DNA of 64,000 nt from Rhizobium sp. ACO-34A. GTDB taxonomy: Bacteria; Pseudomonadota; Alphaproteobacteria; Rhizobiales; Rhizobiaceae. Below the pieces are notes generated by a model that had not been told where the DNA came from, made no database searches, and saw only the letters and a program-made list of their open reading frames with translations. Location: assembly GCA_002600635.1 (NCBI GenBank), contig CP021373.1, positions 372,001 through 436,000 on the forward strand. The letters are read 5' to 3'. The translations under genes and the position numbers were made by a program. Shown piece after piece: positions 25,643-29,984 of this stretch. Position 1 is the stretch's first letter, and each line of letters begins with the position of its first letter.

Positions 25643-26341
25643 TCAGCGTGTTTCGTTCTCGTGCTGCCATTCCCTCATCAGCACCGCAGCCTCGGTTCGA
25701 TTGCGAACCTCCAGTTTGCGCAGGACCCTCGTCATCACATGCTTGATCGACTTTTCCTGAAGTGAAAGGAAGCGCGCGATCTCCTTGTTGCTTTGTCCCT
25801 GTGCAACCAGCGCAAGGATCTGTTCCTCGCGCGGCGTAAGATGTGGCAAGGCACGTTTGGCCGGCTCCGTTCCAGAGGTTTCGTCTTCCCCTGACCGGTC
25901 ACTGGCCATCTCTGAAAGAACGCGTGCCGCCAGTCCCGGGGAGACGATCATCTCCCCTTCGTCGACGCGTCGAAGCACATCCGCAAGATAGCCTGCGTCA
26001 GCTCCCTTCAGCACATATCCTCTCGCTCCCGCTTTCAGCGCCTCGTAGACATCATGATTGTCCTCGGATGCCGTCAGGACGACGATCCGGGCGTTGCCGT
26101 CCATGTCGCGAATGTCTCGAATCGCAGCATGTCCACCGCCGGGCATGGAGAGGTCCAGAAGGCAGATATCGGGTCGCTGCCGTTGATAGATGGACACGGC
26201 TTCGACGGCTGTCGCCCCCTCTCCCACGATCTGGATACCTCCCTCGTCCTCGAGACCGCGAACGACGCCCATGCGAAACATCGGATGATCATCCACAATG
26301 GCGACACGCAGCAATTTCGGCATCCTGACGGCCGTCGTCAT
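25643..26341 (-). CDS. NarL/FixJ-type response regulator
   Basis: A 232-residue response regulator. The receiver domain (about residues 11-128) has the acidic pair DD at 17-18, the phosphoacceptor Asp63 in CLLDLSMP, Thr in VVLTAS and Lys in GYVLKG. A LuxR-type helix-turn-helix at about 165-225 (LTPREEQILALVAQGQSNKE) follows. The ATG overlaps the kinase stop as ATGA (26338-26341), so the pair is translationally coupled. The gene is followed by the iron operon on the same strand, 160 bases away, and may control it, but no shared motif was found. Its targets and signal are unknown. Confidence 0.9.
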   Translation of the reverse strand: MTTAVRMPKLLRVAIVDDHPMFRMGVVRGLEDEGGIQIVGEGATAVEAVSIYQRQRPDICLLDLSMPGGGHAAIRDIRDMDGNARIVVLTASEDNHDVYEALKAGARGYVLKGADAGYLADVLRRVDEGEMIVSPGLAARVLSEMASDRSGEDETSGTEPAKRALPHLTPREEQILALVAQGQSNKEIARFLSLQEKSIKHVMTRVLRKLEVRNRTEAAVLMREWQHENETR

Positions 26342-27738
26342 GGCAGCACCATTTTCACCGCCGTGCCGAAGGCGGGATCACTCTTGATCTCCATTCGCCC
26401 CCCAAGGCTCGCTATTCGTTCGTCCAGACCCGCGAGACCCAGGCCCGCGCTCTGTGGATCGGGTGTAAAGCCGACACCGTCATCCTCTACCGTGACCACG
26501 ATCCCATCAGGCTCTCGCGTCACCGTAACGGCGAGCCGCGTGGCATTGGCGTGGCGGGAGGCATTGCTCAAGGTTTCCTGCAGAAACCGATAGACGCAGA
26601 TCTTCGCGCCGTGGCTTGTCAGTTCAACCTGCGGGATACTGGCGTCGACGGGCGTGCCGGAATGAAGTTCATGGGCCTTGATCGCACGGATCATGACCTC
26701 TTTTCCGGATAAGTGCTCCAGCTCGGGGAGCCGGAGGTCGCGGCAGATATCACGTATTTCGTCAATCGCGCCCTGAACTGAATGGCGGATCAGTTCCGGA
26801 TCGTCTTCCCTTCCCTTGCCCTTCCTGATCGCTTCAACGCGCATCACCGCAAACCCGAGAAGTTGTGCGGGACCATCGTGAAGATCAGAGGATATCCGCC
26901 GAAGATAGCGCTCGTTGAGCGCAACCGTTCGCTGTGAGGCTTCATCCACACGCCGGCGCAAACCGGTATTGACGTCGAGAAGCCGTGAAAGCTCGCGAAC
27001 CTGATCGTCCAGCTTTCGCCTCTGCCGTTCGATCTGTGCGCTGCCACGCGCGACGATCAGGAACAGCAGCGCCAGCATTCCGATCGTGACACCGGCGACA
27101 ACCAGCCAGCTGCGCAGATGTGCCTGCCGAAGCTCGGAAAGGATGTCCCGGGAATCCTCGTAGAATTCCGCAACTCCGATGACTTTCCCCGTCCGCGCCT
27201 CGCGGATCGGGCTGTGGATCTCGAGAAACGGAAGTCCGCTGCGTCTTTCAAAGGAATGCTCATCACCGCGCAGTCCATCGAACTCCGCCGTGACCGCTCC
27301 GGCCAATGCCTTCTGCAACGATGCCTGCGGCGGGAAGACCCTGCCGATCAGCTCCCGGTCGGTGCTGAACGCGACCGTTCCGTCATGCGCCCAGATCTTG
27401 AAGGAGAAGACCCTGCTGGCCAGAGGGCCCTGATGAATGGCGTCGGTAAGCTCAAGGCGGGATTGTTCGTCCAGAACGGACTGGAATGAAAGCTTCTGCG
27501 CCAGAGGAGAAACGATGCTGTCGACAAACAATGCGGCGGCATCTGCCCGGTTCTGAAAGATCGCCCTCTCGATGTTCGCCGACACCCAGATCCCGATTAT
27601 CGACATCCCGAGCAGCAGAACGGGAATGCAAGCCAGGGCGAATTGCCAGGCGTGCGAGAGCTTTCGCCACCATTCAAAGCTCAGCGCGCGATTTCTCGCC
27701 AAGCGCGATCCGGTGAATAAACGCAGCACCGCCTTCAA
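26338..27738 (-). CDS. Membrane sensor histidine kinase, NarX/HisKA_3 type
   Basis: A 466-residue sensor kinase. One membrane helix lies at about 33-54, a periplasmic sensor segment of about 150 residues with a dCache/sCache-like look follows, and a second helix is at about 210-230. The cytoplasmic part has a coiled linker, the HisKA_3 phosphoacceptor block SSDLHDGPAQLLG, and an ATPase domain with ETLSNASRHANAT (N box) and VTVEDDGVGF (G box). The start is a TTG at 27738 with GGGAG seven bases upstream; no ATG lies nearby in frame before the first helix. It is coupled to the response regulator by a four-base overlap. The signal is unknown. Confidence 0.88.
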   Translation of the reverse strand: MKAVLRLFTGSRLARNRALSFEWWRKLSHAWQFALACIPVLLLGMSIIGIWVSANIERAIFQNRADAAALFVDSIVSPLAQKLSFQSVLDEQSRLELTDAIHQGPLASRVFSFKIWAHDGTVAFSTDRELIGRVFPPQASLQKALAGAVTAEFDGLRGDEHSFERRSGLPFLEIHSPIREARTGKVIGVAEFYEDSRDILSELRQAHLRSWLVVAGVTIGMLALLFLIVARGSAQIERQRRKLDDQVRELSRLLDVNTGLRRRVDEASQRTVALNERYLRRISSDLHDGPAQLLGFAVMRVEAIRKGKGREDDPELIRHSVQGAIDEIRDICRDLRLPELEHLSGKEVMIRAIKAHELHSGTPVDASIPQVELTSHGAKICVYRFLQETLSNASRHANATRLAVTVTREPDGIVVTVEDDGVGFTPDPQSAGLGLAGLDERIASLGGRMEIKSDPAFGTAVKMVLP

Positions 27739-28026
27739 GGCTTTCTCCCGACCAACTCAGATATAGCCTGAATACCTGACAAAAGGGCGAAACTTCAAAC
27801 CGTAATGTATGAGGCGCGTTTTTGATCGTCGGAATAAACGCAGACACCGTTCGGGCACGGTGCCTGATGTGCCACGGGCGATGGCATGCAAGAGCACGAG
27901 TGCAAAGGTTTACGACGCGGCTGGGTTCAAAACCTGGGCGTAACGCTCTCCACGTTAACGCATGAGCGAAGCGATGACGGTGGTCGGGATCATTCGCAGT
28001 TGGGCTTCGACCTGTAAGCGGAAACG
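27739..28026. other. Intergenic region upstream of the sensor kinase
   Basis: About 290 bases with no gene between the kinase start and the end of the small RNA. It should contain the kinase promoter. An imperfect dyad GCGTAACG...CGTTAACGC lies near 27940-27962 and a short CACCGT...ACGGTG stem near 27850; neither can be assigned. Confidence 0.4.
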
Positions 28027-28063
28027 AAAAAGCCTGCCGCGGGAGGAGGTGCGGCAGGCTTTT
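28027..28063 (-). terminator. Terminator of the anti-SD RNA with CCUCCUCCC in its loop
   Basis: A stem of thirteen base pairs (AAAAGCCTGCCGC with GCGGCAGGCTTTT) closes a ten-base loop containing CCTCCTCCC and ends in five T on the minus strand. It serves as the 3' end of the small RNA and as one of its anti-SD arms. Confidence 0.85.
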
Positions 28064-28190
28064 CGAAATGATCGAACAACGGCTGGGAGGAGGAGTGCCG
28101 CTGTTCCTTCAGGCTTCCCTTGGGAGGAGGAGTGGGTCGCCCGAAACACGAAGCTCTGTGGGAGGAGGTACATCGCTTCGTTGAGATTGC
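28027..28190 (-). ncRNA. Small RNA with four anti-Shine-Dalgarno (CCUCCUCCC) hairpin loops
   Basis: The minus strand holds four hairpins in a row, each with CCTCCTCCC in the loop. HP1 (28148-28181) has stem ACGAAGC/GCTTCGT. HP2 (28111-28142) has a GGGC/GCCT plus CCC/GGG stem. HP3 (28075-28105) has stem AACAGCGGC/GCCGTTGTT. HP4 (28027-28063) has a 13-base-pair stem around AGCCTGCCGC and ends in TTTTT, so it is also the intrinsic terminator. A TATAAG at about 28190-28195 could be the -10. Loops of this kind define the cuckoo/CcsR RNAs of alphaproteobacteria and resemble alpha-r14 RNAs of rhizobia, which pair with ribosome-binding sites of mRNAs. Stem compensation (for example a G-U pair in HP3) and repeated loops make chance unlikely. 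Whether one or two transcripts are made is unknown. Confidence 0.85.
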
Positions 28191-28378
28191 TTATACACGA
28201 CCTCGCAGATCGGGTTAGAGGCTTTGCCGCAGTCCAGCCATGCGCCTCGCGCACATCGCCGAGAGCCGTTGCCTGATATTGAGCCCTTCGCCGCGAAAAC
28301 GGCCGAAGGTCGTCCAGAACCTGATCAGCGGAATGCTTTGACCGGCTTTGTCGTCCCGGGCCGATCAACGCCGGGAAA

Positions 28379-29695
28379 TCAGCGCTTGTCACCGAAACGC
28401 CGCGGCGCGGCGCGGCCGGTTACCTGCTCCCAGTGTTCGTCCGCCCGCCGTTCGAAGGTTGCACCATCGCGCGCATCGCTCTGGTAGAAGGCGCCGCGCG
28501 GCACGTCCGGCGCATAGACCTGGTCGCTCCAGCCACGGACTTCGTCGTGCGGAAAGGCATAGCCGACATGGCCGAGTGCCGCAGCACCCTTGTAGTGCGC
28601 GTCACGCAGATGCATCGGCACCCCGGACGGCACCTCGTTCGCCACATGCGCAAGTGCCAGCGAAATGCCCCGGCAGGCGGAATTCGATTTCGGCGCGCGC
28701 GCCACGTGAAGTGCGGCGTGCGCCAGGACGATCTGCGCTTCCGGATAACCGATTTTCTCCACTGCATGGAGCGCCGCAACGGCCGTCTGAAGTGCCGTAT
28801 TGTCCGCCAGTCCGACATCTTCCGATGCGTGGATCATGATACGGCGGGCAATATAGCGCGGATCCTCACCGCCATGGATCAGCCGCGCCAGCCAGTAGAG
28901 CGTCGCGTCGGGGTCGGAGCCTCGCATGGACTTCACGAAGGCCGAGACGACATCGTAGTGCGCGTCGCCGGACCGGTCGTGGTTGACCGGCGCGGCCGAA
29001 TAGGCTTCGTCGACCATCGTCTCCGTGATGAGAACCGGCTTGCCCGCCGGATGACCGACGGCGAGGCTTTCCAGCACCGTCAGGGCGCGGCGCGCATCGC
29101 CGCCGGAGCGACCGGCGATGCGCCGCAGGAGTGCGGGGGCGAGTTCCACCGCGATGCCCCCGCTGGCGAGATGATCGAGACCGCGGCGCACGACCTCCTC
29201 CATTTCCTCGATGGCCAACGGCTCCAGTTTCAGGATGGTCGACCGGGAGATGAGAGCGGGCGTCAGGGTGTGATAGGGATTGCCCGTCGTCGCCCCGATG
29301 AAATCGGCGACGCCTTCCTCGCAAAGCGCCAGCAGATGATCCTGCTGCGTCGCGCTGAAGCGATGCACCTCGTCGGCAAACAGAAGCGTCGGGCGCATGC
29401 GCGCCTCGTCCGCGATCTTGCGGATATCGGCCACATTGTTGTGCGCGGCATGCAGCGGCCTGAAGTTCTTTCCCAGCATGTTGCCGATGGCGCGGGCGAT
29501 GGTGGTCTTCCCGAGACCGGGTGGACCGTAGAGAATGATGCTGCCGAGCTGTCCGGCGGCAATACGCCGGCGCAGCATCGTTCCCTTGCCGAGAATGTTC
29601 TCCTGGCCGATGACATCGTCGAGCGTCGCCGGACGCAATTGCGCGGCCAGCGGCATGGAGCCTGTGCGGGGTGCGGCATCGAAAAGATCGGTCAT
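28379..29695 (-). CDS. rarA: Replication-associated recombination protein A (AAA+ ATPase)
   Basis: A 438-residue AAA+ ATPase of the RarA/MgsA/WRNIP1 family, which acts at stalled replication forks and is related to clamp-loader subunits. Walker A is ILYGPPGLGKTTIARAIG, Walker B with the DExH-like box is LLFADEVHRFSATQQD and sensor 1 is FIGATTGNPYHTL; the C-terminal tetramerisation domain contains RGSDPDATLYWLARLIHGG and ASEDVGLAD. The start at 29695 (MTDLFDAAP) has GAGG before it, and 32 extra in-frame codons upstream are not needed. It is the one clear housekeeping gene in the window and appears monocistronic, with the small RNA 200 bases downstream on the same strand. Confidence 0.93.
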   Translation of the reverse strand: MTDLFDAAPRTGSMPLAAQLRPATLDDVIGQENILGKGTMLRRRIAAGQLGSIILYGPPGLGKTTIARAIGNMLGKNFRPLHAAHNNVADIRKIADEARMRPTLLFADEVHRFSATQQDHLLALCEEGVADFIGATTGNPYHTLTPALISRSTILKLEPLAIEEMEEVVRRGLDHLASGGIAVELAPALLRRIAGRSGGDARRALTVLESLAVGHPAGKPVLITETMVDEAYSAAPVNHDRSGDAHYDVVSAFVKSMRGSDPDATLYWLARLIHGGEDPRYIARRIMIHASEDVGLADNTALQTAVAALHAVEKIGYPEAQIVLAHAALHVARAPKSNSACRGISLALAHVANEVPSGVPMHLRDAHYKGAAALGHVGYAFPHDEVRGWSDQVYAPDVPRGAFYQSDARDGATFERRADEHWEQVTGRAAPRRFGDKR

Positions 29696-29984
29696 GCGTG
29701 CCTCGTTGAAAGGGTTCCCATTCCGAGGCCCCATCTGCGTCGTTGCCCGGCTGGATGACGAGCGTCTACCGGCCATGGCGGTCGAGGTCAAATCACAGCA
29801 GGGTACTCAGTGATTCAGGGGACGATTTGGGGCGCCCTGCGTGCTGGGATGCATTACTATCCTGCCAGCTGGGTTCCTCGAAAGAACTGTTTCATTGTCC
29901 AAGCGTATCCATGGGGCAAGGGCCAAAGCGCGATCAACCGAAGTTGGCGATGCGTGGCGCTGCAACATCGCTGCCGCATGGCGA
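29696..29984. other. Degenerate region between rarA and the truncated AraC gene
   Basis: No intact gene. A minus-strand frame directly after the AraC-fragment stop (reading ...ELALMIAMRQR...) may be decayed continuation of that gene. It is too short and divergent to confirm. The rarA promoter should also lie here. Confidence 0.35.

Follow-up and report, generated by a model that had tools for sequence, protein, structure and literature searches.

RFMSmelA099, described in 2011 by Reinkensmeier and colleagues, is an RNA of four hairpins whose loops all carry CCUCCUCCC (PMC3927594). The same report covers rhizobial members of this group with three and with four loops, as well as RS0680a of Rhodobacter sphaeroides, which has two hairpins (PMC3927594). 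In S. meliloti 1021, SmelA099 is listed as a cDNA-sequencing candidate of 160 nt on the minus strand of pSymA (1328175-1328334; PMC2873474, PMC7143759). The relative with the most functional detail is NfeR1, an RNA of 123 nt with three hairpins that is reported to be activated by LsrB and repressed by NtrC, LsrB binding a TGCA-N6-GCAT box within the stretch from -72 to -60 (PMC10746234). According to the same source, the three motifs of NfeR1 act redundantly and independently of Hfq, and NfeR1 lowers an ntrB reporter, with pairing at the ntrB translation start (PMC10746234). S. meliloti has six NfeR1 copies, only one of which is described as reliably seen on northern blots (PMC7143759).

The window analyzed here, a stretch of 64,000 nt from Rhizobium sp. 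ACO-34A, carries on its minus strand four successive hairpins with CCUCCUCCC in each loop (Table 1). The nonamer CCTCCTCCC occurs five times in the window, compared with a mean of 0.88 after shuffling (at least 5 in 0 of 100 window shuffles); four of these sites are the loop motifs of the array and the fifth is isolated (31887-31879). The predicted fold of the array has four separate hairpins and an energy of -69.1 kcal/mol (z -6.08), a stability equaled in 0 of 200 shuffles, and the four loop nonamers have mean unpaired probabilities of 0.999 to 1.0 in the fold of the window copy. Hairpin 4 consists of 13 pairs and a ten-base loop and has a U run after it; we therefore read it as the terminator. 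A simple terminator scan did not list this hairpin because it accepts only loops of 3-8 bases. Motif count, fold, and loop accessibility thus confirm the arrangement proposed in the initial annotation, in which every hairpin presents CCUCCUCCC and the last one doubles as the terminator. The interval given there, 28027-28195, also takes in a -10-like hexamer, and the RNA itself most likely has the ends transferred from SmelA099.

Table 1. Features of the four-loop small RNA locus in the window of Rhizobium sp. ACO-34A
Feature	Position	Strand	Basis
Predicted RNA, 160 nt	28024..28183	-	SmelA099 ends (pSymA 1328334-1328175, minus) transferred to the window
Hairpin 1, loop motif 28168-28160	28148..28181	-	Fold; beyond the Rfam ar14 model
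Hairpin 2, loop motif 28130-28122	28107..28146	-	Fold; two-sided changes in 6/6 counted pairs
Hairpin 3, loop motif 28093-28085	28074..28106	-	Fold; two-sided changes in 8/9 counted pairs
Hairpin 4 (terminator), loop motif 28049-28041, U run 28031-28027	28028..28063	-	Fold; two-sided changes in 6/12 counted pairs
Rfam RF02344 ar14 full-length match, hairpins 2-4	28025..28149	-	102.8 bits, gathering score 58.8, E 7.3e-18
-10-like hexamer TATAAG	28190..28195	-	Sequence and upstream comparison
TGCG-N6-GCAT box, one base off the LsrB box TGCA-N6-GCAT	28240..28253	-	Sequence and upstream comparison

A covariance-model search, which the initial annotation had proposed as a check, places the locus in a known family. 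Rfam ar14 is the sole family to reach its gathering score within the window, with a match that spans model positions 1-123. The model has three hairpins and hairpin 1 of the window lies outside it. The other candidates fell short: CcsR1 (RF02791) gave 32.6 bits at 28068-28147, under its gathering score of 65.3, ar7 gave 30.4 bits against a gathering score of 60, and matches to RNAI and FsrA in the window were likewise under their gathering scores. As defined for NfeR1, alpha-r14 comprises three hairpins with an unpaired CCUCCUCCC in each, whereas the window copy has four; it does show the consecutive CCUCCUCCC loops and variable stems that define the four-hairpin RFMSmelA099. Because three of its hairpins form a unit in agreement with the Rfam model, we assign the window copy to the four-hairpin subtype. 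The ar14 score and the stem covariation described below support the reading as a cuckoo/alpha-r14-type small RNA gene, and the locus is a further copy of an already described rhizobial small RNA, the four-loop form not being new. Judged from its sequence, the locus is very probably a SmelA099-type alpha-r14/cuckoo member encoding one trans-acting RNA of about 160 nt that is transcribed on its own. The ar14 match omits the first hairpin of this subtype, which a four-hairpin model would annotate properly.

SmelA099 is a different locus with the same layout: four hairpins, the last a terminator, a length of 160 nt, and a first hairpin of the same type. The two sequences are identical at 129 of 158 aligned positions, with four gaps, and the 29 differences lie mostly in hairpins 2 and 3. 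Transfer of the SmelA099 ends gives a length of 160 for the window RNA too, and with these ends the CCTCCTCCC motifs lie at offsets 15, 53, 90, and 134, compared with 15, 52, 88, and 134 in SmelA099. In the SmelA099 fold the third motif has two paired bases, whereas all four motifs are unpaired in the window copy, and the -10-like hexamer is GTATAG in SmelA099 and TATAAG here. The likeness to alpha-r14/NfeR1 lies in hairpins 2-4, which fit the whole model, in the shared loop motif, and in an LsrB-type box; the window copy differs by the further hairpin ahead of the model-matching part. RS0680a, which we take to form one family with CcsR1 (RF02791), has the same loop motif but two hairpins in place of four, and the window score is below the CcsR1 gathering score. 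The initial annotation gave two loops for the known cuckoo/CcsR RNAs, which is incomplete: three- and four-loop rhizobial members have been in print since 2011 (PMC3927594). Nor are four loops exceptional, as the initial annotation had implied, four hairpins being the published architecture of RFMSmelA099 (PMC3927594).

Four loops in line had also been read as the product of a tandem duplication or as a locus for two RNAs, in which two CcsR-like two-hairpin units are read through as one transcript or processed apart. The CcsR1 match over 28068-28147 is in keeping with such an arrangement, but its 32.6 bits are below the gathering score. Between the hairpins we saw by eye neither a second -10 nor a second U-tailed hairpin; the only U run follows hairpin 4. 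The single -10-like hexamer and the lack of an internal promoter or U-tailed hairpin on inspection argue for one RNA, and at SmelA099 one 160-nt cDNA-sequencing candidate covers all four hairpins. We consider two RNAs at this locus very unlikely and retain the single SmelA099-type RNA, which may be processed into shorter forms.

To describe stem conservation, we used an alignment of 81 four-loop sequences, each with exactly four perfect motifs, GAAG in the first 5' arm, and enough flanking sequence, and each with less than 92% identity to any earlier row. The loci L003, L030, and L061 are excluded, and row L178 is shortened to its locus end. In this selected set, pairing holds in 97.8% of cells, compared with a mean of 92.2% after shuffling, and two-sided changes are seen at 22 of 37 pairs, compared with a shuffled mean of 11.5; on none of five measures did any of 500 shuffles attain the value of the real alignment. 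With the partners offset by one to three columns, 30.0-48.7% of cells remained paired. The stems of hairpins 2 and 3 are the most divergent between copies. Two-sided changes occur in each of the four hairpins, which bears out the earlier claim that the stems vary yet keep pairing; an absence of stem conservation in relatives had been named as grounds for rejecting the locus, and pairing is kept. In hairpin 1, two-sided changes are found in 1 of 7 and 1 of 3 pairs of its two helices, an invariance that is partly built in because the selection fixed the first-arm sequence; many of the loci came from a pattern with the first 3' arm fixed. The outermost pair of hairpin 1 is nonstandard in 19 of the 78 sequences with letters there. 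A separate check of hairpin 1, made without the first-arm filter, covered 40 of 65 places in genomes of the genus, and in 40 of these 40 fetched arrays a local fold of 44 bases left the first motif unpaired between flanking pairs. Two of them, L102 and L103, have other first stems; when L103 is folded over a longer stretch, the first motif is closed by only four pairs and the outer arm pairs elsewhere.

Covariation also bears on whether the array is simply a coding or chance C-rich stretch. Two overlapping open reading frames, 27955-28392(-) and 27962-28276(+), are both open, and either could in principle be the real gene. Neither has a Pfam family at E 0.001, and the conserved features are RNA stems and loops, whose covariation speaks against this reading. 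We regard the chance that one of these frames is the real gene as negligible.

Upstream of the predicted RNA, the TGCG-N6-GCAT box occupies -70 to -57 relative to the predicted start, a spacing in line with that of the NfeR1 box. The -35 of the window copy is weak, and a generic sigma-70 promoter scan found no promoter. Among 132 distinct four-loop upstream regions, TGCR-N6-GCAT is present in 57 (1 of 132 after shuffling) and missing from 75, and in 53 of the 57 carriers it lies 84-86 bases ahead of the first motif. A looser form of the box is found in no more than 57 of 132. An adjoining element, GCAT-N2-CTG, is present in 120 of the 132 regions and in none of the shuffled ones. For three-loop copies, counted here only where ATCGAA precedes the first motif (28 distinct regions), the corresponding counts are 10 of 28 for TGCR-N6-GCAT, 27 of 28 for the looser form, and 4 of 28 for GCAT-N2-CTG. 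These counts indicate that the upstream elements of the two classes are related but not identical. One could imagine that loop number is tuned, with four-loop copies forming a separate class that has a higher valency than three-loop copies for titrating ribosome-binding sites and that responds to different conditions through a related but distinct LsrB-type promoter; we think this improbable. The locus bears on the modest question of why three- and four-loop copies coexist in one genome.

Such coexistence is seen in Rhizobium sp. ACO-34A itself, which has four ar14 copies: two three-loop copies on the 4.75-Mb contig C1 and two four-loop copies on the 494-kb contig C3, one of the latter being the window locus. 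Across 40 relatives, an ar14 search gave a match at E 0.001 in 32 and over the cut-off in 25. A pattern of three spaced motifs matched 63 of 63 genomes of the genus (reversed control, 0), and a tighter spacing, that of the first three loops of four-loop copies, matched 36 of the 63 at 65 places (control, 0). A scan of named GTDB genomes returned at least 120 matching stretches; the 80 matches listed include Rhizobium, Neorhizobium, Ensifer, Sinorhizobium, Shinella, Pararhizobium, Mycoplana, Agrobacterium, and others. Among plasmids, 495 records match a 231-base query; in 11 of these, at least 80% of the query is matched in one place. The locus adds one copy of a widespread rhizobial regulator.

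With several copies in one genome, the window locus could be a genuine family member, compatible with its SmelA099-type identity, that is silent or has no added effect. The four ar14 copies and the weak -35 are in line with this, as is the reliable detection of only one of six copies in S. meliloti (PMC7143759), from which it follows that the window copy may be weakly expressed. Against it, pairing is kept through two-sided changes across the selected set, and the window copy has intact stems, loops, and terminator together with an upstream box. We judge a silent or dispensable copy to be unlikely.

If the SmelA099-type RNA is active, an LsrB-like activator at 28253-28240 would probably drive a housekeeping-sigma promoter, with transcription starting near 28183 and ending at hairpin 4. 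The four unpaired CCUCCUCCC loops would then be interchangeable, each able to seed pairing with purine-rich ribosome-binding sites. By analogy with NfeR1, such pairing would keep translation of many mRNAs from starting and bring about their decay, and the targets would probably be transport and nitrogen-metabolism mRNAs. Most likely, then, redundant anti-Shine-Dalgarno loops cover ribosome-binding sites on mRNAs; the action on such sites envisaged in the initial annotation fits the behavior published for NfeR1 (PMC10746234). Because NfeR1 is reported to be Hfq independent, Hfq binding by the window RNA is doubtful.

The best match in the genome to the NtrB model scores 197.2 bits, below the curated cut-off of 240. 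Its start reads ACAGGAGGCCGCATG, with AGGAGG, complementary to the loops, just before the ATG; the open reading frame ahead of it is presumably dusB. This Shine-Dalgarno match weakly suggests ntrB-type targeting. A simple duplex estimate gives -18.1 kcal/mol for the loop paired with GGGAGGAGG, compared with -14.1 for a 16S 3' end. At the two shorter Shine-Dalgarno sites tried, the 16S end is the better partner (-11.6 versus -9.9 and -9.2 versus -8.7), so selective action should favor mRNAs with extended purine-rich sites.

On the 494-kb contig, the RNA is adjoined by a RarA/MgsA-type AAA+ ATPase gene (28379-29791, minus strand), and DNA similar to this stretch is present on Shinella plasmids. 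Around the rarA match in Shinella HZN7 and Sinorhizobium BG8 (the latter record unannotated), no motif run was listed. Downstream of the RNA lie a histidine kinase (HisKA_3) and a LuxR-type response regulator (25643-27738, minus strand), and beyond this pair is a solute-binding protein gene resembling those of iron(III) ABC transporters. The RNA has a different gene neighborhood in S. meliloti SM11, Rhizobium daejeonense, and Neorhizobium NCHU2750. The neighbors, compared in these five records, therefore say little on function.

Several other loci carry unusual arrangements of the motif. One three-loop ar14 copy on C1 of the same genome, near 2103529, has an extra CCTCCTCCC beyond the terminator U run (L003:1486-1494), 31 bases from the start of the last loop motif, and the spacing is the same in L061. 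In another family of the order, seven CCTCCTCCC motifs lie within about 430 bases (L030:1301-1733), where ar14 scores do not reach the gathering score; the locus may hold several cuckoo-like RNAs in tandem. L033, also from another family, has three CCTCCTCCC motifs in each of two distinct runs separated by about 330 bases (1473-1570 and 1800-1894), at which no Rfam family came up to its gathering score. At L028:1501-1833, a tandem ar14 pair about 210 bases apart scores over the gathering score at both members, without an exact CCTCCTCCC. Finally, one contig of another genome holds two four-loop copies with identical listed sequence about 86 kb apart (G064:C2 378954-379079 and 464655-464780).
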